A DNA stretch of 64,000 nucleotides from Actinomyces sp. B33. Lineage in GTDB: Bacteria; Actinomycetota; Actinomycetes; Actinomycetales; Actinomycetaceae. A program made the position numbers and the translations under genes. Below, in pieces: positions 1 to 58,727 of the stretch (positions within the stretch are counted from its first letter, which is position 1; every line of letters starts with the position of its first letter). The stretch covers positions 1 to 64,000 of the forward strand of contig NZ_JAMRYR010000004.1 of NCBI RefSeq assembly GCF_028437565.1. The letters are read 5' to 3'. The notes beneath the pieces are model-generated. The model saw only the letters and a program-made list of their open reading frames with translations, was not told where the DNA came from and ran no database searches.

Positions 1-412
1 CTTGTGGGTGGTTGGGGGCGTGGGGTGTGCTTGTGGGTGGTTGGGGGCGTGGGGTGTGCTCTCGAGTGGGAACCCATTGGCCTCGTCCGTCCCATGCATC
101 CGGCACCAGCCCCGTGCGCGCCCTCGTCCCCTTTCAACCGTAGAGCCGAGTAGTTGCCGGCGGTCGTATCAGCTCCGCGAGCCGAGCAGTTGGCGGCGAT
201 CGCATCAGCTCCGCTGAGCCTCATCCCCCTTCCTCACCCCAACCCTCGCACCACCTCTCGCACCTGAGCGTCTGACCCCCGCATTACCCCCGAAAACGAA
301 CATTTCCCCGCAAAATGAGGCCCGGATTTTCGTTTTCGAGGGAAACGCCGCGAACGCGTTGAGTCACCGACGCCGAAGCGCCCACGGTGGACGACCACCG
401 GCCCCGACGCCC
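1..412. repeat. Gene-free left edge with two short tandem duplications
   Basis: No credible gene is seen here. Positions 1-29 and 30-58 are two identical 29-bp tandem units rich in G and T. Positions 143-178 and 179-214 are two 36-bp units differing at a few bases, and the start of a third follows. A palindromic element lies at 284-346 and is listed separately. The reading frames crossing this stretch look like GC-rich shadows. Confidence 0.7.
284..346. repeat. Dispersed palindromic element, copy 1 (degenerate)
   Basis: The left arm contains CCCCGAAAACGAACATTTCC. The right arm carries the complementary TTCGTTTTCG core but has lost a few bases, so the stem is imperfect. The inner sequence TTTCCCCGCAAAA is shared with the copy at 6796. 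It lies just downstream of the minus-strand gene ending at 413. Confidence 0.8.
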
Positions 413-4098: not shown

Positions 4099-6771
4099 AT
4101 GATCGGGCAGTGGTGGACCCTGATTCCGACCTTCGTCGCGATGATGGTCGCCCTGGTCCTCCCCGGCTGCTTCTGGCTGAGGGCCGGTCCCCGCCCGGTC
4201 CTCGTCGGCCTCGCGGCCGCCCCCGCGTTCTGCGCGGGGCTCCTCACCGCCCTGTCGGTCCTCCTGCCGGGATTGGGCGGCGACTGGGAGCCCTCCGCCG
4301 TCCTCCCCGTCCTCGGGCTGTCGGCCCTCATCGGGGCCGTCATCCTCTTCCTCGGCCACGCGCGCCGAGTCAACGACGGGGTCATGCCCCGCCCCGGCCG
4401 GTACGCCGCCGTCCTCGAGCCGACCCTCCGCCCCTCATCGGAGGCCCGGCGCTCGCGGGCCGCGACGGCGGCCGCCGTCCTCGTCGGGTTCGCCGTCGCC
4501 GCCGCCCCGATGATCCTGACCGCCGACCCGCGCGACCCCGTTCAACAGTGGGATTCGACCTTCCACCTCAACGGGGTGCGCGCGATCCTCCAGGGCGGGA
4601 ACGCGAGTCCCTTCGGGGGGCTGTCCGCCCTGTACGGGGGCCGCGAGGTCTTCTATCCGACGGCGTGGCACGCCTTCGTCGCGATCTTCGTCGAGTCGCG
4701 GACGATCATCCAGGCCTCCAACGTGTCGTCTCTGGTCCTCATGGCCGTGTGGGTGGTCGGGGCGACGGCGTTCGTCTCCGTCGTCACCGACTCGCGGCCG
4801 GCCGTCCTGGCCGCCCCGGTTCTGGCGGGCGCTCTTCCGAGTATGCCGGCGGACGCTCTGACGATGTACAACCAGTGGCCTCATGCGATGGGGCTGGCGC
4901 TCGTCCCGGGCCTGGCGGCGGCTGCGGTCGTCGTCGGGCGGCGCGTCAGCGAGGGGGTCGACGAGGCGGGGGCGGTGCGCGCGGTCCTGCGGCAGGCCCC
5001 GGCGGGGGTGTTCCTCGCGGTCGGCGCCCTGGGCGCGGTGGGGGCGCACCCGAGCGCGGCGTTCACCCTGGTGGTGCTCCTGGCTCCGGGTCTCCTGTCG
5101 GCGCTCGTGCGCCTGGCGGGCCGGGCCGTCGCGGGTCGACGGGTCGTCGAGGCCGTGGCGTGGGCCGCGGTCGGGGCGATGGTCGTCGTCGTGCCCTTGG
5201 GGCTGTTGACGACGGAGAAGATCCGGGCGATGGGCGACTACCCGAGGTCGGGGATCGGGTGGGGCACGGCGCTGTCGCATGCACTCATGCCGGTCCCCCC
5301 GTTCTCGCAGACACCGGGGCTGCGCCTCCTCGTCCTCGTCCAGGGGGTGCTTCTCGTCGTCGGCGTCGGGGCCGTCCTGGGGGCGGGTCGGGCGCTCGTC
5401 GGATGGTGGCGGGCCGGAGCGCCGGTCGCGGCTGTCGGAGAGGGGCCGGTCGTCGCCGGTGGGGGGGCGGAGCAGGGCGCCTCCGATGGAGTGCCGGAGC
5501 GCATGACCGGGGTTGGGCGAGACGCGGGCGCCGTTTCGGGGGGTTCTCCTTCGGAGGCCGATAGGGGCCGCCCCCTGTCGGCCGGCTCGGGCGTCGACCC
5601 GCTGGGGTCCGGGGCACCGGGCGGGACCGGCGCCCTCGGAGGGGACGCCGTCTCGGATAAGGCGCTTCCGGGGACGAACGCGGAGGGGGAGGATCCGATC
5701 GCTGCGGGATCGGGTCCGAGTGGGCCTCGGGCGCCGGGTCCGGCGTCCGGTGCCGTCGTGTGCGCGCCCGTTGACGCCCAGAACCGAGTGCCGCTTCCGG
5801 AAAGGCGTGGGGTCGAGGAGGCCGGGCCGGGCGTTTCAGCGCCGGATTCCTCCGCTGGAATGAGGGGAGATCCATTTGCGGTCTCGTTCACGGGTGCGGC
5901 TGGAATCCGGGTCGCCGCCCGTGCCGGTTCCCCTGGTGTGCGCTGGCCCCTCGTCTCGCTCGTCTGCTTCGCGCTGCTCACTCTTCTGGCGTACGCGCCG
6001 AATTCGCCGGTGAGGACCTTCCTCCTGGCGCCCTGGTACATGGACGCCCGGAGGATCATGGGGGCGCATGGGCTCGCCATGGTCCCGATCATGGCGATCG
6101 GGTTCTCCTCCCTCGTGAGCGCTATCCGTGGTGCGGCGGGTCCTTTGCATCCTGGGGCCCGCCGTCCGGTCGGCGGCCGTCCGGGCGCTGGCCGTCCGGG
6201 CGCCGACCTGAGGCTCGTCGTGGGCCTCGGGGCCCTCCTCCTGGCCCTTTCGGGTTTCGGGGCCTTCGACGCTCGCGTCCGCGCCGCCGCTTACGTCTAC
6301 GACTCGGATGACCTGGGCAAGCCGGGGATGGCGACGACCGGCGAGCTGGCGATGCTGCGCCGGGCCCGCCTGATCCTGCCCGGCGATGCCCTCGTGCTCG
6401 GCGATCCGATCGCGGGGGCCGCCTACATCGAGACGATCTCCGACCGTGAGGCGGTCTTCCCGCAGTTGACCATGGCGAACGCCGATGAGGAGTCCCAGAG
6501 CCTCCTCGCCGATCACTTCAACGAGATCCACACGAATCCGCGCGTATGCGAGGTCGTCCGGGATCTCGGCATCACCCATTTCTACGCCGAGGAGGACGGG
6601 ATGTACTACAACTTCTCACGATCCTCGCGCTCGCCTGGCCTGTACGGCGTCGATACGTCCAGCGGCTTCGAGCAGGTCGATGCAGGGGGGACGGCCGTCC
6701 TCTACAAGATCACCGCGTGCGGTGAGGTTGCCCCCGGCGGGGCTCGTGAGGCCGCCGTCGGCGGCAGGTGA
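4099..6771 (+). CDS. Large polytopic membrane protein, DUF6541/GT-C-like
   Basis: The 890-aa product is a multi-pass protein with many hydrophobic segments over residues 1-430 and 610-720. Features such as FYPTAWHAF, MYNQWPHAMGLAL and the C-terminal extracytoplasmic part (ILPGDALVLGDPIAGAAY, VVRDLGITHFYAE) resemble actinobacterial DUF6541 proteins, thought to be GT-C-type lipid-linked sugar transferases. That role is inferred. The stretch encoded at about 5400-5930 (residues 435-610) is a Gly/Ala/Pro/Ser-rich insertion without membrane segments. The start is set at 4099 because GAGGAG overlaps the preceding stop and hydrophobic sequence begins at once; an in-frame opening extends to 3802 but only as a shadow of the DedA tail. 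Confidence 0.65.
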   Translation: MIGQWWTLIPTFVAMMVALVLPGCFWLRAGPRPVLVGLAAAPAFCAGLLTALSVLLPGLGGDWEPSAVLPVLGLSALIGAVILFLGHARRVNDGVMPRPGRYAAVLEPTLRPSSEARRSRAATAAAVLVGFAVAAAPMILTADPRDPVQQWDSTFHLNGVRAILQGGNASPFGGLSALYGGREVFYPTAWHAFVAIFVESRTIIQASNVSSLVLMAVWVVGATAFVSVVTDSRPAVLAAPVLAGALPSMPADALTMYNQWPHAMGLALVPGLAAAAVVVGRRVSEGVDEAGAVRAVLRQAPAGVFLAVGALGAVGAHPSAAFTLVVLLAPGLLSALVRLAGRAVAGRRVVEAVAWAAVGAMVVVVPLGLLTTEKIRAMGDYPRSGIGWGTALSHALMPVPPFSQTPGLRLLVLVQGVLLVVGVGAVLGAGRALVGWWRAGAPVAAVGEGPVVAGGGAEQGASDGVPERMTGVGRDAGAVSGGSPSEADRGRPLSAGSGVDPLGSGAPGGTGALGGDAVSDKALPGTNAEGEDPIAAGSGPSGPRAPGPASGAVVCAPVDAQNRVPLPERRGVEEAGPGVSAPDSSAGMRGDPFAVSFTGAAGIRVAARAGSPGVRWPLVSLVCFALLTLLAYAPNSPVRTFLLAPWYMDARRIMGAHGLAMVPIMAIGFSSLVSAIRGAAGPLHPGARRPVGGRPGAGRPGADLRLVVGLGALLLALSGFGAFDARVRAAAYVYDSDDLGKPGMATTGELAMLRRARLILPGDALVLGDPIAGAAYIETISDREAVFPQLTMANADEESQSLLADHFNEIHTNPRVCEVVRDLGITHFYAEEDGMYYNFSRSSRSPGLYGVDTSSGFEQVDAGGTAVLYKITACGEVAPGGAREAAVGGR

Positions 6772-6795: not shown

Positions 6796-6859
6796 TTTTC
6801 CCCCGAAAACGAACATTTCCCCGCAAAAAAGCCTCCCTTTTTTCGTTTTCGTGGGAAAT
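6796..6859. repeat. Dispersed palindromic element, copy 2 (degenerate)
   Basis: The left arm CCCCGAAAACGAACATTTCC is intact. The right arm is TTTTTCGTTTTCGTGGGAAA, so the inner stem is broken. It lies between the stop at 6771 and the pheA promoter, about 70 bases upstream of the pheA -10 box. Its inner bases match copy 1 rather than copies 3 and 4. Confidence 0.8.
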
Positions 6860-6943: not shown

Positions 6944-8113
6944 ATGGAATCCGCACCCGCTGACCCGCTCGCCCACTCCATGTCCGAGGATCGGGCCCCC
7001 GCGGCCGCGGACCAGCCATCCGTAGCCGCCTCGAATGCTCCCGGCCGGGAAGCCGCAGCCGCCCAGCAGACATCCGTCGACCGGGCTCCCGGACCTGTCC
7101 CCGACGTTCCGGGCTTCGGCTCCACCGGCCGAACAGATGACCGGCCCCAGCGCATCGCCTTCCTCGGCCCCTTCGGGACCTTCACCGAGCAGGCCGTCCG
7201 CCAAGTCGCCCCGGTCGGCGCCGAGCTCCTGCCGATGACCTCCGCCCCGCAGGCCCTCGCAGCCGTGCGTCGAGGCCAGGCGGACAGGGCCGTCGTCCCC
7301 ATCGAGAACTCGATCGAAGGAGGGGTCAACGCCACTCTCGACTCCCTCTCCCACGGCGAGCCCCTCGTCATCGTCGCCGAAATGGTCGTCGACGTCGTCT
7401 TCCAACTGGCCGTCCGACCCGGCACGACCGCCGACGCCATCGGCCGCATCGGCACCCACCCGCACGCATGGGCCCAGTGCAGGACCTGGGCCGAGGCCAC
7501 CTTCCCCGGCGCGATCCACGTGCCGACGACTTCGACCGCGGCCGCCGCCGAACTCCTCGCCGCGGGCGACGCCCCGTTCGACGCTGTCCTGTGCAACGCG
7601 ATGTCGGTCGCGGCCTATGGGCTTGACGCCCTCCACAGCGACGTCGCGGACACTCCCGGGGCGGTCACCCGATTCGTTCTGGTCTCCCGGCCCGGAGAGA
7701 TCCCCGAGCCCACCGGGGCCGATAAGACGACGATCCAAGTCGCCCTGCCCGTCAACGAGTCCGGCGCCCTGCTCACCCTGCTCGAGCAATTCGCCGTGAG
7801 GGGCGTCGACCTGTCGCGTATCGAGTCGCGCCCCAGCGGAGACGGCCTGGGGGATTACACCTTCAGCATCGACATCGTCGGGCACATCGCGGAGGAGCGC
7901 GTTCAAGCATCGCTCGTCGGACTCCACCGGTACTCGCCGGAGGTGAGGTTCATGGGCTCGTATCCGCGGGTCGACGGGGTGGAGGCGACGGTCCTGCGCG
8001 GGACCCGCGATGAGGACTTCCAACGAGGGAGGGCGTGGGTCGCGGGGATCCTCCGCGGCGGGGACGGGGCCTCCGTCCCCGCGGGCGAGGCGCCCGGCTG
8101 GCCGCTGCGGTGA
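6944..8113 (+). CDS. pheA: Prephenate dehydratase
   Basis: Converts prephenate to phenylpyruvate in phenylalanine synthesis in the cytoplasm. The 389-aa product opens with about 65 low-complexity residues, then a PDT domain from RIAFLGPFGTFTEQA through VVPIENSIEGGV and the catalytic TRF motif in GAVTRFVLVS. A C-terminal ACT domain (ESGALLTLLEQFAVRGVDL, then RIESRP) is the usual phenylalanine-feedback site. Members of this monofunctional type are usually near 300 aa, so the N-terminal tail is an extension; an internal ATG at codon 13 is an alternative start. No chorismate mutase domain is present. The gene converges on the diacylglycerol-kinase-family gene across a minisatellite. Confidence 0.93.
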   Translation: MESAPADPLAHSMSEDRAPAAADQPSVAASNAPGREAAAAQQTSVDRAPGPVPDVPGFGSTGRTDDRPQRIAFLGPFGTFTEQAVRQVAPVGAELLPMTSAPQALAAVRRGQADRAVVPIENSIEGGVNATLDSLSHGEPLVIVAEMVVDVVFQLAVRPGTTADAIGRIGTHPHAWAQCRTWAEATFPGAIHVPTTSTAAAAELLAAGDAPFDAVLCNAMSVAAYGLDALHSDVADTPGAVTRFVLVSRPGEIPEPTGADKTTIQVALPVNESGALLTLLEQFAVRGVDLSRIESRPSGDGLGDYTFSIDIVGHIAEERVQASLVGLHRYSPEVRFMGSYPRVDGVEATVLRGTRDEDFQRGRAWVAGILRGGDGASVPAGEAPGWPLR

Positions 8114-48831: not shown

Positions 48832-49866
48832 ATGCCTAGTCATCCCCAGGGGGCGCCCCGCCTCCACGACGTCGCCGAGCGCGCCGGGGTCTCCCTGGGC
48901 ACCGCATCCAACGTGCTCAACCATCCCGAGCGCGTCTCCGAGACGACCATCGAACGGGTCCGCGCCGCGATCGAGGAGCTGGGATTCGTCCGAAACGGAA
49001 ACGCCAGCTCCCTGGCGTCCGGTCGCCCCGGATCGATCGGCCTGGTCGTCATCAACCTGTCGAACTCGATGTTCGTCGACGTGGCCAGGGGGGCCCAGGC
49101 GGCGGCCAGGGCCGCCGGCCACAACCTCCTCCTCGCCGACAGCGCCGACGATTTCGACGCTCAGGGCGAGAACGTCGAGTCCTTCAGCGAGGCGCGTGTC
49201 GCAGGCCTGCTCCTCGCCCCGATGCAAGACTCTGCATCCCATATTGCCCGCCTCAAAGTCCGGGGCACCCCGGTGGTCATCATCAACTACGACCAGGGGG
49301 ACGACGACCTGTGCACCGTCGTCGTCGATAATGAGCGCGTCGGCTACCTCGCCGCCCGCCACATGATCGAGATCGGCTGCACCCGCATCGCTCTGGCAGG
49401 CGGAGGAGATGAGGACTACCAGCCCGTGCGCCTGCGCCGCATCGGAGTGCGCAGGGCCATGCGCGAAGCCGCAGGACGAGCCGCCTTCGAGGAGATCGCC
49501 GTCGACGGCGTCAAGGAGGCCGATGGCCGCGCAGTCGCTGAGATCGTCTCCGCCCGCAGCTCCGGTTCGCGTCCGGACGGCATCATCGGGGTCACGGATT
49601 CATTGGCCTCCGCGCTGATCGAGGGACTGGGCGAGGCGGGAATCTCGGTTCCCGGCGATATCGCCGTCATGGGCTGCGACCGGAACGCCTCCGCCCAGGA
49701 CTGCCCGGTGCCGTTGACGAGCGTGGCGATGAAGGGGCAAGAGATGGGCGCGGCCGCTGTTCGACTCCTCTTGGAGGAGATGGCTCGGGACGAGGGGCAC
49801 GAGCACCGGAGGGTGACGCTCTCGCCAGAGCTCGTCATCAGGGCCTCGACATCGTCGACCGGTTGA
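48832..49866 (+). CDS. LacI-family regulator of the rhamnoside genes
   Basis: The 344-aa product has a LacI helix-turn-helix (RLHDVAERAGVSLGTASNVLNHP) and a type I sensor domain ending with IAVMGCDRNASAQDCPVPLTSVAM. It closes the importer operon and probably represses the divergent GH78 and importer promoters through TGAAGCGCTTCA, released by an imported rhamnoside. Compared with the regulator at 28384, the recognition helix reads VSLGTASN rather than VSVGSVSN. The ATG at 48832 follows AAGGTG by eight bases; a GTG at 48784 overlapping the permease stop is an alternative start. Confidence 0.85.
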   Translation: MPSHPQGAPRLHDVAERAGVSLGTASNVLNHPERVSETTIERVRAAIEELGFVRNGNASSLASGRPGSIGLVVINLSNSMFVDVARGAQAAARAAGHNLLLADSADDFDAQGENVESFSEARVAGLLLAPMQDSASHIARLKVRGTPVVIINYDQGDDDLCTVVVDNERVGYLAARHMIEIGCTRIALAGGGDEDYQPVRLRRIGVRRAMREAAGRAAFEEIAVDGVKEADGRAVAEIVSARSSGSRPDGIIGVTDSLASALIEGLGEAGISVPGDIAVMGCDRNASAQDCPVPLTSVAMKGQEMGAAAVRLLLEEMARDEGHEHRRVTLSPELVIRASTSSTG

Positions 49867-49887
49867 ACGACCCGCGTCTTACTCTCG

Positions 49888-51093
49888 TCAATCGAGGGTC
49901 GGCGCCTCCTCCTCGGTGTCCCGCCGCAGGGAGCGCACGCCGACGAGCATGAGGGCGACCATGATCCATCCCGCCCCGACGACGATGACGTAGCCTCCGT
50001 GGGCTCCGGCCGAGTCGACGGCCCGGCCGGCGACCGCCGCCCCGAGGGACACCCCGAGGTTCATCGAGGTCGACATCCACGCGAGCCCCTCGGTGAGCTG
50101 CGACGCGGGGACGATCCTCGCGATGATCATGTTGACGTTCGTCATCGTCGGCGCGCACGCCATGCCGGTGATGAGCATCGTCACCGCCATCGACCACAGG
50201 TGATGCGCCGCCAGGAAGGTCGTCGTGCCGACCGCCAAGGCGATGATCCCGACCATGTAGAGCCGCCACAGGGGCTGGACCCAGCTGCGCGCCCCGTAGA
50301 CGAGCGCCGCGACCAGCGAGCCTGTGGAGAACACCGCGAGGAGGACCCCGGACATGGCGGGAGCGCCCAGGGCCTCGGTGAAGGCGACGACCGAGACGTC
50401 GTTCGCCCCGAACAGCATGCCCGCCCCGATGTACGTCAGGGCGAGGACCAGAACCGCCGGCTTGAAGATCACCGAGGCTCGTGCGATCCCCGGCTCGCGC
50501 CGTACCGGCGCCGGCTCGCTCGACCGCTGGGCGAGGAATCCGGCGCCGCCGGCGACGAGGAACAGCACGGACAGGGCGACGCCCGTTCCCGCGTGCAGCG
50601 ACGTGCCGAGGACCGTCGCCAGGACGGGCCCGAGGATGAAGACGATCTCGTCCATCGCGGCCTCGAAGGCGTAGGCGGTCGTCAAGTCCCGCGGATCGTC
50701 GACGACGGTCGCCCACCGGGAGCGCACGAGCGCCCCTGGAGAGCCCCATGTCGCCCCCGCCAGCGCGGCGCACGCGAAGAGGACCCATGAGGGCGCGTGC
50801 GTCGTTGCGGCGACGAGGAGGCCGGAGGCCGAGGCGGCGCAGACCGCCAGCGCGGGACCCATGATCCTCATCTGTCCGTGCTCGTCGACGAGGCGCGCGA
50901 GGATCGGGGCGCACACGGCCAGGGCGACGATGTTGACGGCGGATACGGCGCCCGCGAGCGTGTAGTTCCCGTACTCGGATTTGACGAGCAGGATGATCGA
51001 GATGCCCATCATCGACATCGGCAGGCGCAGGATCAGGCCGGTGAAGGAGAACCTCCACGCGCCTCGGATGCGCAAGATGCGGGAGTAGACCAT
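49888..51093 (-). CDS. MFS transporter
   Basis: The 401-aa product has twelve predicted hydrophobic segments in two halves. The 2-3 loop motif is VCAPILARLVDEHGQMRIMG, matching the MFS A motif loosely, and a second-half counterpart is weak. It may export a drug or metabolite; the substrate cannot be predicted. It converges on the LacI gene with 21 bases between stops, and its upstream region holds palindromic element copy 3. Confidence 0.82.
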   Translation of the reverse strand: MVYSRILRIRGAWRFSFTGLILRLPMSMMGISIILLVKSEYGNYTLAGAVSAVNIVALAVCAPILARLVDEHGQMRIMGPALAVCAASASGLLVAATTHAPSWVLFACAALAGATWGSPGALVRSRWATVVDDPRDLTTAYAFEAAMDEIVFILGPVLATVLGTSLHAGTGVALSVLFLVAGGAGFLAQRSSEPAPVRREPGIARASVIFKPAVLVLALTYIGAGMLFGANDVSVVAFTEALGAPAMSGVLLAVFSTGSLVAALVYGARSWVQPLWRLYMVGIIALAVGTTTFLAAHHLWSMAVTMLITGMACAPTMTNVNMIIARIVPASQLTEGLAWMSTSMNLGVSLGAAVAGRAVDSAGAHGGYVIVVGAGWIMVALMLVGVRSLRRDTEEEAPTLD

Positions 51094-51188
51094 CAGGTGA
51101 TTCTATCGGCGCTCGTCGCAGGGGCGGGTCGTGTCCCCGTGGGTTTCGTGCAGGATTCCACTGCGCACGGGACTACTGACAGTGATGA

Positions 51189-51250
51189 TTTCCCCCGAAA
51201 ACGAACATTTCCTACCGGATAAGCGGGGAAATGTTCGTTTTCGGGGGAAA
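51189..51250. repeat. Dispersed palindromic element, copy 3 (perfect arms)
   Basis: Two perfect 24-bp arms (51189-51212 and 51227-51250), each containing CCCCGAAAACGAACATTTCC or its complement, flank a 14-base loop. It lies between the MFS start and the end of pgm. Arm sequence and spacing are identical to copy 4, while the loops differ. Confidence 0.9.
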
Positions 51251-51294
51251 CGGGAGGGAATGGAGAGCCGTCTGGGCCCGTCCCCGAGCGGAAC

Positions 51295-52965
51295 TCAGCC
51301 CAGCGCGTCCGAGACCAGGCGCTTGGCCGCCTCCTGCACCTCGGCCAGGTGCTCGGGGCCCTTGAAGGACTCGCCGTAGATCTTGTAGACGTCCTCGGTG
51401 CCCGACGGGCGGGCGGCGAACCACGCGTGCTCGGTCGCCACCTTGAGGCCCCCGATCGCCTCGCCGTTGCCCGGGGCGCGCACGAGCGTCGCGACGATCG
51501 GGTCCCCGGCCAGGTCGGTGGCGGCGACGTCCTCGGGCGACAGGGCGGCGAGCCGGGCCTTCTCCTCGCGGTTCGCCGGGGCGTCGATGCGCGCGTACGC
51601 CGAGGCGCCGAAGCGCTCGACCTGCTCGTCGTGGAGCTGCGAGGGGGTCTTGCCGGTCACGGCGAGGATCTCCGAGGCGAGCAGCGCGAGGATGATCCCG
51701 TCCTTGTCGGTCGACCACACGGTGCCGTCCCTGCGCAGGAACGAGGCCCCCGCGGACTCCTCGCCGCCGAAGCCGACCGAGCCGTCGAGCAGCCCGGGGA
51801 CGAAGTGCTTGAAGCCGACGGGCACCTCGATGAGGCGCCTGCCCAAGGAGTCGACGACGCGGTCGATGAGCGCCGACGAGACGAGGGTCTTGCCGACGGC
51901 GGCCTCCGACGACCACCCGGGGCGGTGGGTGAAGAGGTACTCGATGGCGACCGCGAGATAGTGGTTCGGATTCATCAGGCCGTCGGGCGTGACGATGCCG
52001 TGGCGGTCCGAGTCGGCGTCGTTGCCGGTGGCGATGTCGTACGGGGTGTCGCCGTTCTCGTCGGGCGTCATGGCCTGCCGCAGGGATGCCATCGCGTAGG
52101 GGGAGGAGCAGTCCATGCGGATCTTGCCGTCCCAGTCGAGTGTCATGAACGGCCACGAGGGATCGACGACGGGGTTGACGACCGTCAGGTCGAGGCCGTA
52201 GCGCTCGGCGATCGCCGCCCAGTAGTCGACGGAGGCCCCGCCGAGAGGATCGGCGCCGATGCGCACGCCCGCCGAGCGGATCGCGTCGATGTCGATCACG
52301 GTGTCGAGCTGGTCGACGTAGAAGGTCGTGTAGTCGAAGGGGACGATGTGCTCGTCGTCGAGCAAGCCCGAGCCGATGATCCGGGGGACCTTGCGCCAGC
52401 CCTCGGCGAGGATCTCATTGGCGCGGTCGGCGATCCACCCGGTCGCGTCGGCGTCGGCGGGGCCGCCGTGCGGGGGGTTGTACTTGAAGCCGCCGTCGCG
52501 GGGAGGATTATGCGAGGGGGTGACGACGATGCCGTCCGCCAGGCCGGGCCCGCAGGTGCGCAGGGCCCCGGGGGCGCCGTTGGCCCCGAGGATGGCGACG
52601 GAGACGGCCGGCGTCGGAGTGTAGGAGCCGCGCGAGTCGATCCGGGTGTCGACGCCGGCGGCGGCGAGGACTTCCAGGGCGGTGCGCCATGCGGGCTCGG
52701 ACAGGGCGTGGGTGTCGCGGCCGATGAACAGGGGGCCGTCGACGCCCTGGGAGGCGCGGTACTCGACGATGGCCGCGGTGATGGCGACGATGTGGGCCTC
52801 GTTGAATCGGCCGTCCAGGGAGGACCCGCGATGCCCGGAGGTGCCGAAGGAGACCCTCTGGTTGACGTCGGAGGGGTCCGGTTCGATGTCGTAGTAGGCG
52901 CCGACGACCTCGGCGGAGTCGATGAGGTCTGCGGGAAGGGCGACTGTGCCTGCTCGTTCGTGCAT
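51295..52965 (-). CDS. pgm: Phosphoglucomutase
   Basis: Interconverts glucose-1-phosphate and glucose-6-phosphate. The 556-aa product is the alpha-D-phosphohexomutase type: [13 protein letters not shown] at the N-terminus, the phosphoserine loop [17 protein letters not shown], the metal-binding loop [11 protein letters not shown], the sugar loop [10 protein letters not shown] and the C-terminal phosphate site [12 protein letters not shown]. Length agrees with E. coli Pgm (546 aa). The ATG at 52965 is chosen because CACACT lies six bases upstream; an in-frame ATG 36 bases earlier (53001) is the alternative. Confidence 0.93.
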
Positions 52966-52971
52966 GGCCCC

Positions 52972-52977
52972 AGTGTG
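52972..52977 (-). promoter_or_regulatory. Leaderless -10-like box of pgm
   Basis: CACACT on the minus strand is followed by six bases (GGGGCC) and the ATG at 52965. The first base departs from TANNNT. Confidence 0.4.
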
Positions 52978-52999
52978 CACCGACCCGCCGTCGTTTGGC

Positions 53000-53062
53000 A
53001 TCCCATCGCATCAGATGGGATCACCCCTCGCATTTCTGTCGACGCTGACCTCCTGATACATT
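53000..53062 (+). promoter_or_regulatory. Inverted repeat and extended -10 upstream of the epimerase gene
   Basis: ATCCCATC and GATGGGAT (53000-53007, 53014-53021) form an inverted repeat. TGATACATT at 53054-53062 is an extended -10 box for the rightward gene. The inverted repeat would lie near the -35 region. Confidence 0.45.
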
Positions 53063-53124
53063 AAAAATGTTCCGCCGGTCACATCCGGCCCCCGCTCGAT
53101 GACGATGACGTCAGGAGGTCCCCC

Positions 53125-54465
53125 GTGGGATGGTTCGATTCCGTTGAGCACAACAGGTGGCTGTCCGCCCAGATGCAGGCCTTGATCGCCGAGGCCGAAG
53201 GGGCGATCGTCCCCACCGGGTTCGCGCATCTGACGGTCGAAGGCGACCCCGACCCGACCCGGAGCATCGATCTGGCCGTCACCGCGCGGATGCTCTACGT
53301 CTTCTCCCTCGGCACGCTCATGGGACTGCCCGGGTCGCGTCGCTACGCCGACCACGCCATCCGGTGCCTCAACCGGTTCTTCGTCGATCCCGAGCACGGC
53401 GGCATGTGGACGTCGATCACGCCCGATCCGGACGCCGATGGCAATGGCGTGCCGTGGGACGAGGACGGGCGCGCGAAGTCCCAGTACCACAACGCCTATG
53501 TCATCCTGGGCGTCGCGGCGGCCACGGTGGCGGATCGCCCCGGAGCCCATGAGCTGCTCAGCCGGCTCCTCCACGATCAGGAGCGCTACTGGCTCGAGGG
53601 CAACGGCCTCGTCCGCGACCAATTCGTCGAGGATTTCTCCGAGGAACTGCCGGTGCGCACGATGGGCACGCTCCTGCACACGGCGGAGGCCTATCTGGCT
53701 GCGGGCGAGGCGACGACCGACCCGGTGTGGGTCGAGCGCGCCGAGATCATGGCCTCCTTCGTCCACGAGGTCGCCTCGGCGAACGACTGGCGCCTGCCCG
53801 AGTACTTCGACGCCTCGTGGAAGAGGCTCGAGGGCGAGCCGGTGGGGCAGGCCGACCGGCGGCGCGTCTACCACGGGTACGTCACGGGGCGCGCCCTGCA
53901 ATGGGTGCGATTGGCGCTGCAGATCCGGTCGGGACTGCGTTCGATGGGCCGTCCGGTGCCGGACTACCTCAAGGAGATGGGGGTCGAGCTCTTCGAGCGC
54001 GCTCGGGTCGACGGGTGGCGGCGCACCGATGGGGAGCCCGGGTTCGCGACGGTCGTCGGGCCGGACGGCGCCCCGCTCGTGGGCGAGGACGAGCATCAGC
54101 AGTGGGTGGTGTGCGAGGGCATCTGCGCGACAGTCGCGTTGCGCCGGGCGCTGCTCGACGATCACGCGACCCCCGGCGAGGTCGAGCACTACGAGCACTG
54201 CTACCGGTCGTTCGTCGATTACGTTAACGACTACCTCATCAGCTCCCCCGGGCGGTGGGTGCGTCGCCTGGACGCGCATAATCGGGAGGTGACGGCGGCG
54301 AAGTCGTCGCGCTGGGACGTGTACCACGCGGTTCAGTCGATGCTCGCGGCACGGGTGCCGTTGTGGCCGCCTTTCGCCTCGGCGCTGTCGCGCGGCCTCC
54401 TCGACAAGCCCGAGGAGGCGCCGTCGGACAAGAGGTCGTGGAACTTCTTCGGGCACCGCGTGTAG
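53125..54465 (+). CDS. AGE-family sugar epimerase/isomerase
   Basis: The 446-aa product has the N-acylglucosamine 2-epimerase (alpha/alpha)6 barrel. Conserved elements include TARMLYVFSLGTLMG, HGGMWTSITPDPDADGNGVPWDEDGRAKSQYHNAYVILG with catalytic-type His, and the later GHRV end. Members interconvert GlcNAc and ManNAc, or mannose and fructose (YihS type); the arrangement here, with KSQYHNAYVIL, favours the aldose-ketose isomerase or mannose type, but this is uncertain. The GTG start has AGGAGGT five bases upstream. Confidence 0.83.
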   Translation: MGWFDSVEHNRWLSAQMQALIAEAEGAIVPTGFAHLTVEGDPDPTRSIDLAVTARMLYVFSLGTLMGLPGSRRYADHAIRCLNRFFVDPEHGGMWTSITPDPDADGNGVPWDEDGRAKSQYHNAYVILGVAAATVADRPGAHELLSRLLHDQERYWLEGNGLVRDQFVEDFSEELPVRTMGTLLHTAEAYLAAGEATTDPVWVERAEIMASFVHEVASANDWRLPEYFDASWKRLEGEPVGQADRRRVYHGYVTGRALQWVRLALQIRSGLRSMGRPVPDYLKEMGVELFERARVDGWRRTDGEPGFATVVGPDGAPLVGEDEHQQWVVCEGICATVALRRALLDDHATPGEVEHYEHCYRSFVDYVNDYLISSPGRWVRRLDAHNREVTAAKSSRWDVYHAVQSMLAARVPLWPPFASALSRGLLDKPEEAPSDKRSWNFFGHRV

Positions 54466-54560
54466 CGTTTGGCCGGTCCCATGGGCGAGGCCCGGGCGGG
54501 GCAGTCGGGCCCGGTCGTCGGGGAGAGGGGCGTCGCCTTTCGGGTACGATTGGCGCTGCT

Positions 54561-54647
54561 GGAGGGCTGACCGAGTGGCCGAAGGTGGCGGTCTTGAAAA
54601 CCGCTGTGTCAGCGATGGCACCGGGGGTTCGAATCCCTCGCCCTCCG
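54561..54647 (+). tRNA. tRNA-Ser(TGA)
   Basis: Acceptor stem GGAGGGC pairs with GCCCTCC, discriminator G. The anticodon TGA is at 54595-54597 in the loop CTTGAAA. A long variable arm (TGTCAGCGATGGCA) and the GGTTCGAAT T-loop are typical of tRNA-Ser. No CCA is encoded. TACGAT at 54545-54550 is a likely -10 box. Confidence 0.97.
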
Positions 54648-54651
54648 CGAT

Positions 54652-54678
54652 CCCCTCGGGATGTTTTATCCCGAGGGG
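54652..54678 (+). terminator. Rho-independent terminator after tRNA-Ser(TGA)
   Basis: CCCCTCGGGAT and ATCCCGAGGGG form a perfect 11-bp stem with a 5-base loop, followed by TTATTTGTT. The 250 bases from here to the next tRNA hold nothing else recognisable. Confidence 0.9.
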
Positions 54679-54931
54679 TTATTTGTTGATTCTGCGAGGG
54701 AAGAGCTCTTTTCCGCGTGGTCGGACCATGGTCGGAAAAGGTGCGAATCCCTGTGCGGGCTGCGGCCGAATCGGGTGTCCGCGCGATGCGCATTGCGAAT
54801 GCGTATGGGTGATCCGGGTCCTCGCCCGGGATAGCCGGAAGAGCTCAAACCTCCTCTTACGAGCCGATTCTGCGGCGCGTGCGCCCGGCGTTTGGCCGGG
54901 GCGCGCGAAGTCGCCTATTGTTGTCGGCACT

Positions 54932-55021
54932 GGAGACGTCGCATAGTCCGGTCGAGTGCGCCTCCCTGCTAAGGAGGTAGGGGTGCATAGCCCCTCGCGG
55001 GTTCAAATCCCGCCGTCTCCG
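54932..55021 (+). tRNA. tRNA-Ser(GCT)
   Basis: Acceptor stem GGAGACG pairs with CGTCTCC, discriminator G. The anticodon GCT is at 54968-54970 in loop CTGCTAA. A long variable arm (GGGGTGCATAGCCCC) confirms serine identity. No CCA is encoded. TATTGT at 54916-54921 is a likely -10 box. Confidence 0.97.
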
Positions 55022-55026
55022 CGATG

Positions 55027-55057
55027 AGGTCCCGGGATCGTTGAGGTCCCGGGACCT
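55027..55057 (+). terminator. Hairpin after tRNA-Ser(GCT)
   Basis: AGGTCCCGGGA and TCCCGGGACCT form an 11-bp stem with a 9-base loop, followed by GTTGCTTGT. This is probably the terminator of the tRNA gene. Confidence 0.75.
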
Positions 55058-55121
55058 GTTGCTTGTATGGCCGGAGCGAACGTCTTGTCCAGTCATGTCG
55101 CGGGCTTTTCGGGCGGTTTCC

Positions 55122-55431
55122 GGCTTGTGCGCGCGGCGGTCGGCGTCATCGTTCAGGCTTGTGCGCGCGGCGGTCGGCGTCATCGTCTCGCCTGTACCCA
55201 GCTCCTGCTCCCCAGCTCTCCCATTTCCCATTTCCCCCGAAAACGAACATTTCCTACTCGATCAGGTGGGAAATGTTCGTTTTCGGGGGAAAGCGTGGGC
55301 TCTCGTCGACGAGGGGGCGCCGTCCGATGGCTCGTCGCGGAGCGAGACTCCCGGGCGCGCCGGCGTCGGTCACCAGGGTGTCGCGCGAACGGCTACTGCC
55401 TGAGCGCCGCCCCCGGGCGCGCCGGCGTCGG
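55122..55431. repeat. Direct repeats between tRNA-Ser(GCT) and dnaX
   Basis: GGCTTGTGCGCGCGGCGGTC and the following GGCGTCATCGT occur at 55122-55152 and 55156-55186, period 34 bp. CCCGGGCGCGCCGGCGTCGG occurs at 55350-55369 and 55412-55431, 62 bp apart. Palindromic element copy 4 lies between the two pairs. No gene is seen from 55058 to 55520. Confidence 0.65.
55231..55292. repeat. Dispersed palindromic element, copy 4 (perfect arms)
   Basis: Perfect 24-bp arms (55231-55254 and 55269-55292) flank a 14-base loop. The arms are identical to copy 3 at 51189; only the loop differs. It lies about 215 bases before the dnaX -10 box. Confidence 0.9.
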
Positions 55432-55508
55432 CGTTGGCATCGCGTGGTCGTCATACACGTGCGCGTACATGCGACGGGGCCGGGTCTCCAGATGAGGGCC
55501 CCACCCAC

Positions 55509-55514
55509 TAGGGT
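55509..55514 (+). promoter_or_regulatory. Leaderless -10 box of dnaX
   Basis: TAGGGT is followed by six bases (TGGGGC) and the GTG at 55521. The spacer is identical to that of the gene starting at 3055. Confidence 0.55.
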
Positions 55515-55520
55515 TGGGGC

Positions 55521-58500
55521 GTGGCCACAGCTCTCTACCGCAGGTACCGTCCCGACGCCTTCGACCAGGTGATCGGGCAGGATCACGTCACCGCCCCGCT
55601 GCGCGCGGCCCTGCGCTCCAACCGGGTCACCCACGCCTACCTGTTCTCCGGCCCCCGCGGATGCGGGAAGACCACCTCCGCGCGCATCCTCGCGCGCTGC
55701 CTGAACTGCGCCCAGGGCCCCACTGACACTCCCTGCGGCCAGTGCGAGTCCTGTCGGGAGCTCGCGACCGGCGGACCCGGATCCCTCGACGTCGTCGAGA
55801 TCGACGCGGCTTCCCACGGCGGCGTCGACGACGCCCGCGACCTGCGCGAGCGCGCCGCCTTCGCCCCCGTGCGCGATCGGTACAAGATCTTCATCATCGA
55901 TGAGGCTCACATGGTGTCGAACCAAGGGTTCAACGCCCTCCTCAAACTGGTCGAGGAGCCGCCTGAGCACGTCAAGTTCGTCTTCGCGACAACTGAGCCC
56001 GACCGCGTCATCGGGACGATCCGCTCGCGGACCCACCACTACCCGTTCCGCCTGGTCCCGCCCGACGTCCTCGCCCCCTACCTGTCGACGCTGTGCCAGG
56101 AGGAGGCGATCGAGGTCGGCGACGGCGTCCTCGGCCTCGTCATGCGAGCAGGCGGCGGCTCTGTCCGCGACACCCTCTCCGTCCTCGACCAGTTGATGGC
56201 CGGGGCCATCGACGGACGGGTCACCTATCGGACGGCGGTCGCCCTCCTGGGCTACACGGATACCGCGCTCCTCGACGAGAGCGTCGACGCCCTGGCCGGG
56301 GGCGACGGGGCCGCGGCGTTCCGCGTCGTCGAGAGAATGGTCGAATCCGGCCATGATCCGCGTCGTTTCGTCGAGGACCTCCTCCAGCGGCTGCGGGACC
56401 TGCTGATCATCTCGGTCGCAGGCGACGGCGCCTCGGACGTTCTCGCGGGCATCCCCGCCGATCAGTTCGAGCGGATGCAGGTCCAGGCCCGCAACTGGGG
56501 GCCGCGCGGCCTGTCGAGGGCCGCCGATCTGACGGACGAGACCCTGCGGTCGATGACGGGCGCCACCTCTCCGCGCCTCCAGCTCGAACTCCTCATCGGG
56601 CGCATCCTCGTGCCCTCCGGCGCCTCGACCCTCGCCGCCTCCTCCGCCACGGACGACGCCCCTGTGCCCGGCATGGTCGGGCTCACCGGCGGCGGCGCCC
56701 CCGTCGAGGCCCCGGCCCCCGCGCCAGCCGGCTTCGGCGCGAAGGAGGCCCGAGAAGCCGTCGAACGGGCCCGGCGCGAGCGCGAGGCGCAGGCACGCGC
56801 TCAGGCATCCGAGCCCTCGCCCGGTGCGACGCCGGCCGGGACGTCCTCTTCTTCTTCCGCCCCTCATCCGGCCGGTGGTGCCGGACGAGCCTCGTCGGAG
56901 CGCCCCTTCGATCGTCAACCGGAACAGCCTCACCAGCGACCGGCCTCGAGCGGATGGCCCGAGGCAGCCGCCCCCGGCCGGGGGGCGCCGGTCTTCTCCG
57001 AGGGATCGTCGGGTGCCGACCAGGCGCCTCCTGCGCCGATGGTCGACGCCGATCGCCCGGCGCGTCCCGTCGTCGCCCCGCAGGACCGGGCGCAGGACGA
57101 CACGCCGTCCCAAGGGCCCTCCGGCGGGCGAGCCGGGGGTTCGGACCCTGCCCGCCCCCAGGGGGAGGAGCCGTCGGGGCGCGATGCGGATATGCTCCGA
57201 GGCCGATGGGGCGAGGTCGTCGAGCGGGTCGCGTCGATGAGTCGCGTGACGTGGAGCCTCGTCAAGGACAACGCCCAGCTCGGAGCCGTCGACGGCGCTC
57301 GCGTCGTCCTCCTCTTCCCCTCCGACGTCATGGTCGCGAACTTCTCTCGGGGCTCTCACGCCCAGACCCTCGCACGGGCCATCGTCGAGACGACGGGCCT
57401 CGCCGTCGAGGTCTCCGCCCAGGTCGGTCAATCCGGCGGGGGAACCGCGGTCACCGCGCCCTCGGCCGCCGCATCCGCGCCCGACCAGTGGGTCTCGGAG
57501 CCGCCCCCTTTTGACGGTGACGAGTCGGAGGACGACGGATGGCCGGCGGTTGCCGTGCCGGCCGACGCCGAACCGGCGAACGGCCGGGGGGAGGCGAGCG
57601 CATCCGCAGCCGTCGCATCCGCCGGTCCGGCGGTGTCGGGTGAGGTCGCGGCCGACTCCGGAGCTTCCGTCGCCCCGGCCGATTCACGGGCCGCCGAGAG
57701 GAGTCCGCTGCCGGTCGGAGGGCGCGACGATGAGGCTCCCGGTCGGTCCCCTGTCGCGCGCGCCACTACGGGCTCTGGCGCCTTCCCCGGTGCCGTCGGC
57801 TCACGGGCCGTCGAGCAGGACCACGCGTCATCCGGTTCCCGCGGCGACGAATCCCCCTCCGTGCCGACAGTCCCGTTCCACCCCGACGGGCATCCCGTCG
57901 CCGGGCAGGAGCGAGAGGAGACCGCTCCGGTATCGTCGCCCCAGCCCCAGCCCCAGCCCCAGCCCCAGCCCCAGCCCCAGCCCCAGGATGCGGATGGGGC
58001 GGTGAAGGGCCGAGCCCCGGGCCGACGCGCCGTCGGCGTCTTCACGTATCCGGAGGACGAGCCGGTCCTCCCCCCTGCGGGCGCGCTCCCCGTGCCGGTA
58101 TCCCCGGCTCCAGGGACCGACGCGCAGACATCCGGATTCCCGGACGAGGGGGATGGTCGTCCCGATGGATCGCCCGACCCCGTCGGGACCCCTGCGCTCG
58201 ACACGGCCCCCGGCTCTGGCGAGCCCCGCTTCATCGCCCCCTCCTTCGACGACGAGGGGCCGATGGATGAGGGGGCCCGGCCCTCGCCCCCCGACGACCT
58301 CCCCCCGGTGGAACCGGGCCGGGGCCCCCGAGCCGGCGCGGAGCACCGCCCCGATCCCGCGTCCGGCGCCCATGCGGGAGCCGACGCTGCGGCGGGAGCC
58401 CCGATGTCCGGCTGGTCCGAGGCCGTCGCCATCCCCGGGGGCCAGGGCGCCGTCTCCTTCGACGACTCCCCCTCGTTCGCGCCGGCGGTCCCCGAGCCCC

Positions 58501-58727
58501 TGGCTTCCGTCTCGCCGATCCGCTCGTCCGGTCGCCTCGCCGCCATGCGGCAGATGCGCGAGCAGCAGTCCCACGAGGAGCCCGTCAAGCCCACGCCCAT
58601 CGAGGACGACACCGCGAGCATCGACGACGAGGACCTGGAGACCTCCTCCCTCTTCGGCCTGCCCGCGGTCCTCGACATCCTCGGCGGGAAGGTCATCGCC
58701 GAGACCTACGACGAAGGAGGGCGCTGA
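55521..58727 (+). CDS. dnaX: DNA polymerase III subunit gamma/tau
   Basis: Clamp-loader ATPase of the replisome. The 1068-aa product starts YRRYRPDAFDQVIGQDHV; Walker A is GPRGCGKTTSAR near residue 45; a zinc module CLNCAQGPTDTPCGQCESC follows; Walker B is IIDEAHM; the three clamp-loader domains end near residue 370. The rest is an unusually long linker of Pro/Ala/Ser/Gly, interrupted by one folded tau-like region (RGRWGEVVERVASMSRVTWSLVKDNAQL) near residue 560. A run of eight Pro-Gln pairs comes from eight CCCCAG units at 57939-57986. The C-terminal tail SSLFGLPAVLDILGGKVI closes the protein. recR follows after three bases. Confidence 0.95.
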   Translation: MATALYRRYRPDAFDQVIGQDHVTAPLRAALRSNRVTHAYLFSGPRGCGKTTSARILARCLNCAQGPTDTPCGQCESCRELATGGPGSLDVVEIDAASHGGVDDARDLRERAAFAPVRDRYKIFIIDEAHMVSNQGFNALLKLVEEPPEHVKFVFATTEPDRVIGTIRSRTHHYPFRLVPPDVLAPYLSTLCQEEAIEVGDGVLGLVMRAGGGSVRDTLSVLDQLMAGAIDGRVTYRTAVALLGYTDTALLDESVDALAGGDGAAAFRVVERMVESGHDPRRFVEDLLQRLRDLLIISVAGDGASDVLAGIPADQFERMQVQARNWGPRGLSRAADLTDETLRSMTGATSPRLQLELLIGRILVPSGASTLAASSATDDAPVPGMVGLTGGGAPVEAPAPAPAGFGAKEAREAVERARREREAQARAQASEPSPGATPAGTSSSSSAPHPAGGAGRASSERPFDRQPEQPHQRPASSGWPEAAAPGRGAPVFSEGSSGADQAPPAPMVDADRPARPVVAPQDRAQDDTPSQGPSGGRAGGSDPARPQGEEPSGRDADMLRGRWGEVVERVASMSRVTWSLVKDNAQLGAVDGARVVLLFPSDVMVANFSRGSHAQTLARAIVETTGLAVEVSAQVGQSGGGTAVTAPSAAASAPDQWVSEPPPFDGDESEDDGWPAVAVPADAEPANGRGEASASAAVASAGPAVSGEVAADSGASVAPADSRAAERSPLPVGGRDDEAPGRSPVARATTGSGAFPGAVGSRAVEQDHASSGSRGDESPSVPTVPFHPDGHPVAGQEREETAPVSSPQPQPQPQPQPQPQPQDADGAVKGRAPGRRAVGVFTYPEDEPVLPPAGALPVPVSPAPGTDAQTSGFPDEGDGRPDGSPDPVGTPALDTAPGSGEPRFIAPSFDDEGPMDEGARPSPPDDLPPVEPGRGPRAGAEHRPDPASGAHAGADAAAGAPMSGWSEAVAIPGGQGAVSFDDSPSFAPAVPEPLASVSPIRSSGRLAAMRQMREQQSHEEPVKPTPIEDDTASIDDEDLETSSLFGLPAVLDILGGKVIAETYDEGGR
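57939..57986 (+). repeat. CCCCAG hexanucleotide repeat inside dnaX
   Basis: Eight perfect CCCCAG units in frame encode (Pro-Gln)8 in the linker of DnaX. Gain or loss of units keeps the reading frame, so length variation should be tolerated. Confidence 0.9.

Follow-up and report, generated by a model that had tools for sequence, protein, structure and literature searches.

MITEs of DDE insertion sequences are short, non-coding, dispersed sequences with inverted ends. The explained cases of dispersal among bacterial palindromic repeats are credited mainly to one enzyme family, the Y1/RAYT transposases (PMC3733652, PMC3116915). In Pseudomonas fluorescens SBW25, the repeats found with RAYT transposases are REPINs, REP doublets that form hairpins (PMC3116915). 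REPs tagged with GTAG or CGTC are described as lying mostly between tandem or convergent genes, 3' of coding regions; some of these families are species-specific and the CGTC families are apparently without a dedicated transposase, and the word 'Actinobacteria' does not occur in the main text of that paper (PMC3733652).

Dispersed through the genome analysed here (G000, a 2.28-Mb draft in 11 contigs) is a family of 62-bp units with fixed spacing and sequence-specific ends. Like the REPINs of SBW25, its members have conserved inverted ends and a variable spacer of constrained length, are extragenic and are dispersed as a unit (PMC3116915); this combination of inverted ends, constrained spacer, extragenic position and multiple copies was found in 43 copies. 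Unlike REPINs, the family comes with no detectable Y1/RAYT gene in G000 or its genus: the Y1 transposase profile PF01797 matched none of 35 genus genomes including G000 (32 of them at least 90% complete), and the same search gave matches in control genomes (5 and 6 of 14). Further differences are that the 24-bp arm of the copy at 51189 is not a hairpin on its own (-0.6 kcal/mol, z 0.20), that the outer pairs carry no compensatory changes, and that 43 copies with no relic singlets were seen, as against the hundreds of copies given for REPINs (PMC3116915). The halves are not tagged REP hairpins of the GTAG kind; their ends are TTTCC and GGAAA. We rejected membership of the RAYT/REPIN system for want of a Y1_Tnp match and, because three defining features were tested and not found, we use REPIN-like as a working term and do not file the family as REPIN. 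The GTAG and CGTC REPs offer a second partial likeness: the 62-bp family also lies mostly downstream of genes, is species-specific and has no detected transposase, but it is a single 62-bp dyad with neither tag at its ends, unlike those tagged hairpins of 20-40 bp (PMC3733652). Searches of the open-licence PMC literature turned up no title or abstract describing it.

The window, that is, the whole stretch of DNA analysed, takes up the initial 64 kb of contig C6 (G+C 0.71), and four copies of the element lie in it (Table 1). All four had been noticed in an initial annotation made from the sequence, and all are present and intergenic by our home-made codon-usage gene caller. The coordinates given there for the last two were correct and those for the first two overran by one or two bases; with uniform boundaries TTTCC...GGAAA, all four copies are 62 bp, the first reading TTACC. 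The copies at 51189 and 55231 do have identical, perfect 24-bp arms and 14-base loops, and those at 284 and 6797 have the outer arm in common plus the inner start CCCCGCAAAA. Within the window, the 18-mer CCGAAAACGAACATTTCC at up to three mismatches has six matches, versus none in each of 100 dinucleotide shuffles, and half-sites at up to two mismatches have nine matches, only inside the four elements.

Table 1. Elements and neighbouring features in the window, and identical element pairs at unrelated sites of the genome (contig:position)
Feature	Position	Strand	Remark
62-bp element, asymmetric class	284..345	+	67 bp past 3' end of LPG-synthase-domain gene
880-aa LPG-synthase-domain gene	413-3055	-	neighbour of 284..345 element
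DUF6541 gene	4099-6771	+	left neighbour of 6797..6858 element
62-bp element, asymmetric class	6797..6858	+	25 bp after stop of DUF6541 gene
Prephenate dehydratase gene	6944-8113	+	right neighbour of 6797..6858 element
62-bp element, perfect palindrome (24-bp arms)	51189..51250	+	44 bp past phosphoglucomutase-family stop
17-bp half-site example TTTCC-N4-AAANCGAA	51189..51205	+	inverted partner 51234-51250
Phosphoglucomutase-family gene	51295-52965	-	neighbour of 51189..51250 element
tRNA-Ser(gct)	54932..55022	+	upstream of 55231 element
Intrinsic-terminator-like hairpin, separate	55027..55057	+	directly 3' of tRNA-Ser(gct), before element; consensus scan
62-bp element, perfect palindrome	55231..55292	+	208 bp past tRNA-Ser(gct)
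dnaX-like gene	55521-58727	+	downstream of 55231..55292 element
Identical pair	C1:294413/306721		flank identity 3 bp left, 0 right
Identical pair	C1:271981/C8:111026		flank identity 0 left, 13 right
Identical pair	C8:3373/5736		flank identity 14 left, 6 right
Identical pair	C4:17091/18329		flank identity 6 left, 0 right

The description of a four-member family proved an undercount once the arm was searched for across the whole genome. At up to two mismatches, the 20-mer of the arm had 45 matches in G000 and its reversed control none; with their flanks, these matches resolved into 39 full elements and two tandem half-arms (C4:238671 and 238723). A covariance model built from 22 of the 39 added four elements (C5:753, C5:465086, C1:375020 and C1:375363), which brings the total found so far to 43 copies with 37 distinct sequences, each exactly 62 bp long. 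Genome-wide, the model scored 150 of 405 first-look candidates, so weak relics could have escaped it. A full local search over 285,531 bases, comprising the window and the regions around elements, found no decayed copy and no intermediate score: elements score at least 53.3 bits in their own orientation, and the next match in these bases, at 12.8 bits, is a tandem half-arm.

All 43 copies align without gaps, and none has an indel. Both ends are the half-site TTTCC-N4-AAANCGAA in inverted orientation, with the inner spacing fixed at 28 bp. On one side of the element TTCC is invariant at positions 21-24, so that TTTCC recurs 19 bp after its first occurrence, and every copy has A at position 31. 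Columns 1-24, 46-53 and 58-62 are strongly conserved and those between 25 and 45 weakly, and a minimum spanning tree, which may overstate the true number of substitutions by up to twofold, assigns 123 substitutions to the 20-bp middle, compared with 17 for the left 24 bp and 32 for the right 18 bp. In eight copies the palindrome extends into the middle, both arms matching the 20-mer; the other 35 keep the outer dyad only. The outer 17 pairs are 90.5% paired across the family, with 1 of 629 cells double-changed, which is below the shuffled mean; of the middle columns, the majority are paired in under 30 of the 43 copies. The perfect arms had been taken to suggest selection or recent spread; selection on structure is not borne out by the small number of fully palindromic copies and the missing compensatory pairing. 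Folding is also mixed. The two palindromic window copies fold at -43.5 and -47.5 kcal/mol as RNA and at z about -10 as DNA, and the two asymmetric ones reach z -3.2 and -4.8 as RNA and -2.8 and -4.1 as DNA, while two further asymmetric copies fold like shuffles (z -0.12 and -0.25). Given mixed folding and no compensatory pairing, we rejected RNA structure as the selected feature (two of four asymmetric copies beat shuffles, and outer pairs do not covary); what selection seems to maintain is the sequence of the ends and their spacing, not base pairing.

Among the elements there are six identical pairs. Four of these occupy unrelated sites, and their exact identity extends only 0-14 bp beyond the element (Table 1), so the unit itself moved or was converted. 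The remaining two pairs have related flanks: on the right for C4:135825/238775, beside tRNA genes, and on the left for C1:375020/375363, which are 343 bp apart. For most other copies, the flanks have little or nothing in common. Together with the 43 copies and the absence of the arm from all 34 other genomes of the genus, identity at unrelated sites indicates recent dispersal of the 62-bp unit, and to that extent the earlier suggestion of a miniature element stands. No flanking target duplication had been obvious by eye around the window copies, and around the 43 copies no duplication of 2-9 bp exceeded permutation (offsets -3 to +3, 200 permutations). No empty site is demonstrable, because the intergenic DNA of relatives fails to align; the nearest congeners have about 85% DNA identity in the best-matching gene.

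Neither the arm, at up to one mismatch, nor the gapped dyad occurs in any of these 34 genomes, and the half-site pattern occurs once each in three of them. A weak covariance-model match in G030 pointed to a second family of the same plan, present in G014, G015 and G030. Ten of its candidates fit a gap-free 70-bp unit, the others being longer tandem arrays or more diverged; the outer unit CCGANNGGTGGACTTCYCA recurs after 19 bp and is also present inverted. Its 16-mer, at up to one mismatch, has 19 matches in G015, 13 in G014 and 4 in G030; another 32 of the 213 genomes searched have one or two matches each, mostly as the variant CCGCACGGTGGACTTC. The inner CTTCTCACCGAA of the 70-bp family resembles TTTCCCACCGAA at 10 of 12 positions, a sequence present in 2 of the 43 copies of the 62-bp family, and common ancestry of the two families is plausible, if not proven, on these resemblances. 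In 400 kb sampled from G009, the only arms listed were G+C-rich ones recurring at up to four sites, no indication of a comparable family, although such a sample cannot exclude one. We discarded a weak model match in G003 (L079) that has no palindrome by eye, as well as the sole match in a contig collection, in a Victivallis MAG (L055), which carries a single arm and seems fortuitous; the window's own genome may be missing from that collection. Spread by phage or plasmid was likewise rejected, with no exact 19-mer arm in viral contigs and no element in phage or plasmid records. The 70-bp family also had no match in phage or plasmid records, and its 18-base pattern matched one viral contig (L192).

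Genes around the elements were taken from the same caller, which missed some, and tRNAs were added by hand. All 43 copies are intergenic by these calls except C1:358683, which contains the stop codon of its right-hand neighbour. At L063:14233-14245, a response-regulator gene gets its stop codon from an element copy through a one-base difference from the usual sequence. A protein search around the gene-touching copies C1:358683/360815 found a relative only in G034, whose response regulator aligns over residues 4-239 of 254 and whose genome lacks the arm. The 25 bases before the conserved arm have a C/T content of at least 0.72 in 31 of the 43 copies (by eye, the 51189 element has no such tract), compared with none of the 43 opposite flanks and 2.9% of 7715 background windows; at least one window of this kind is nonetheless present somewhere in 48% of 60 background 3' regions. 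The side without the C/T tract faces the 3' end of a gene in 31 of 40 copies with a called gene, and the C/T side does so in 19 of 42. Distances to stop codons run from overlapping to more than 150 bp. Of 21 informative asymmetric copies, 18 are oriented with the conserved arm and C/T side facing away from the transcription unit upstream, and three are opposite (binomial p 0.0015; a hand tally in which neighbouring copies are not fully independent). This count includes the 284-345 copy, whose C/T-side neighbour lies off the contig, and is 17 of 20 without it; the eight palindromic copies, whose arm side is arbitrary, were omitted.

Eight copies lie downstream of tRNA genes. Palindromic copies are found 65-449 bp downstream of a tRNA in 5 of 8 cases versus 3 of 35 for the others (Fisher p 0.0026, post hoc), the five being C1:246039, C1:347823, C6:55231, C6:246094 and C7:194645. 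One copy sits at the distal end of a type I-E CRISPR array that adjoins cas1e, with the array direction inferred from the repeat; by repeat search, the array (L061:3490-6500, C1 about 294490-297500) has a 61-bp period and about 41 repeats. The neighbours tested include many of core type, among them IspH/LytB, YchF, RmuC, DnaX, phosphoglucomutase and adenylosuccinate lyase, and none of the 29 distinct element-adjacent proteins compared with Pfam, a subset of the neighbours, is a transposase. On the 591-kb contig C1, all 12 elements fall within 136 kb (C1:246039-381564; uniform simulation p about 5e-6). Near contig ends, five elements of one subclass (C7:512-2083, C5:753 and C5:465086) have related flanks, and a small repeated 67-aa gene lies beside this subclass in two places.

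We give about an even chance to the family being a mobile repeat that is REPIN-like and non-autonomous. We infer an enzyme, working in trans, that would recognize both ends and their spacing and would insert copies without target duplication, next to C/T-rich tracts and mostly downstream of transcription units, where little harm results. Only copies with intact ends and spacing would go on multiplying, leaving the middle to drift freely. The proposed enzyme is not a Pfam-detectable Y1/RAYT. The transposase in trans of the initial annotation is a possible agent; no gene-carrying element with these ends, excess target duplication or Y1 transposase was found. Several observations speak against mobility: there is no candidate enzyme, either as Y1 or among the 29 tested neighbours; C/T-rich windows are not rare as such near 3' ends; and an ageing mobile family should leave relics, so that purifying selection in place is possible. 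More tentatively, and as less likely than not, we suggest that lineage-specific families of this genus form a RAYT-free REPIN-like class, built as a fixed-length dyad with a 19-bp internal repeat (62 bp here, mostly 70 bp in G014, G015 and G030) and propagated or maintained by a protein that reads both rigidly spaced ends. The interest lies in a sharply bounded, recently dispersed family in a genus where no Y1/RAYT was detected in 35 genomes. It offers a small testable system with known ends, known spacing, a sister family and expected properties of the missing protein.

The main rival is a host protein-binding site, which we regard as rather unlikely. A dimeric or tetrameric protein would grip the two inverted half-sites at their fixed spacing and insulate, block or organize the chromosome where transcription units end; copies would have spread by gene conversion or duplication and then been kept by selection. 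Such a site would account for strictly fixed spacing around a highly varied middle, for sequence conserved without base-pair covariation, for the orientation that follows transcription, for the small number of copies between two 5' ends (2 of 40 with both neighbours known, in a hand tally counting tRNAs and CRISPR) and for the grouping on C1. The missing relics despite the varied middle, the main result against a purely selfish reading, fit a host site equally. It sits poorly with the absence of the family from all 34 other genus genomes though many tested neighbours are core-type, with the 3' flanks of phosphoglucomutase-family genes in 29 congeners, where no such site was found, and with the variable distance to stop codons.

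That the elements are multiplied transcription terminators or RNA-stabilizing hairpins is improbable. The two palindromic window copies do fold very strongly and their asymmetric counterparts beat shuffles, genes, tRNAs or a CRISPR array precede most copies, and many of the 29 congeners have, by eye, an unrelated GC-rich hairpin after the phosphoglucomutase-family gene. The 31 element-bearing 3' ends are mixed in this respect, with a further strong hairpin ahead of the element in some and none in others, and several elements lie near a stop codon with no other such hairpin ahead of them. Against a terminator stand the two asymmetric copies that fold no better than shuffles, the lack of compensatory changes and the sense-strand RNA 3' of the element, which is G/A-rich and not U-rich. 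The hairpins that follow tRNA-Ser, -Pro, -Asn and -Met, all ahead of the element, weaken the role further: those of tRNA-Pro, -Asn and -Met begin 4-7 nt after the tRNA, and in all 4 of 8 tRNA-linked copies sit beyond a separate hairpin. No hairpin lies that close after tRNA-Lys, -Thr, -Arg or -Ala; the filter used for tRNA-linked copies missed the tRNA-Ser hairpin that the consensus scan lists. A terminator scan of window positions 49000-57000, which allows loops of 3-8, flags neither element there, and Rfam at gathering score returned only tRNAs, in the window and in 16 of 25 other element-bearing regions.

A classical MITE of a DDE insertion sequence, its autonomous copy lost or in an assembly gap, is the least probable reading and was rejected: conserved inverted ends, a short unit and no coding capacity would suit it, but, unlike such MITEs, the family has no target duplication beyond permutation, never varies from 62 bp and has no larger partner, since no exact half-site occurs outside the 62-bp units except the two tandem half-arms, and hence no larger element with these ends exists in the assembly (an 11-contig draft, in which a gap is possible).

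Two sites have unusual surroundings. At C5:280344 the final two bases of the palindrome deviate, at the point where it gives way to other DNA, and that DNA (C5:280406-280578, L070:3407-3579) resembles, by eye, the end of a transposase gene. At C4:238671-238774 (L067:3672-3775), two tandem 52-bp repeats stand directly before a full element, and both start with an 18-bp piece of the element arm.
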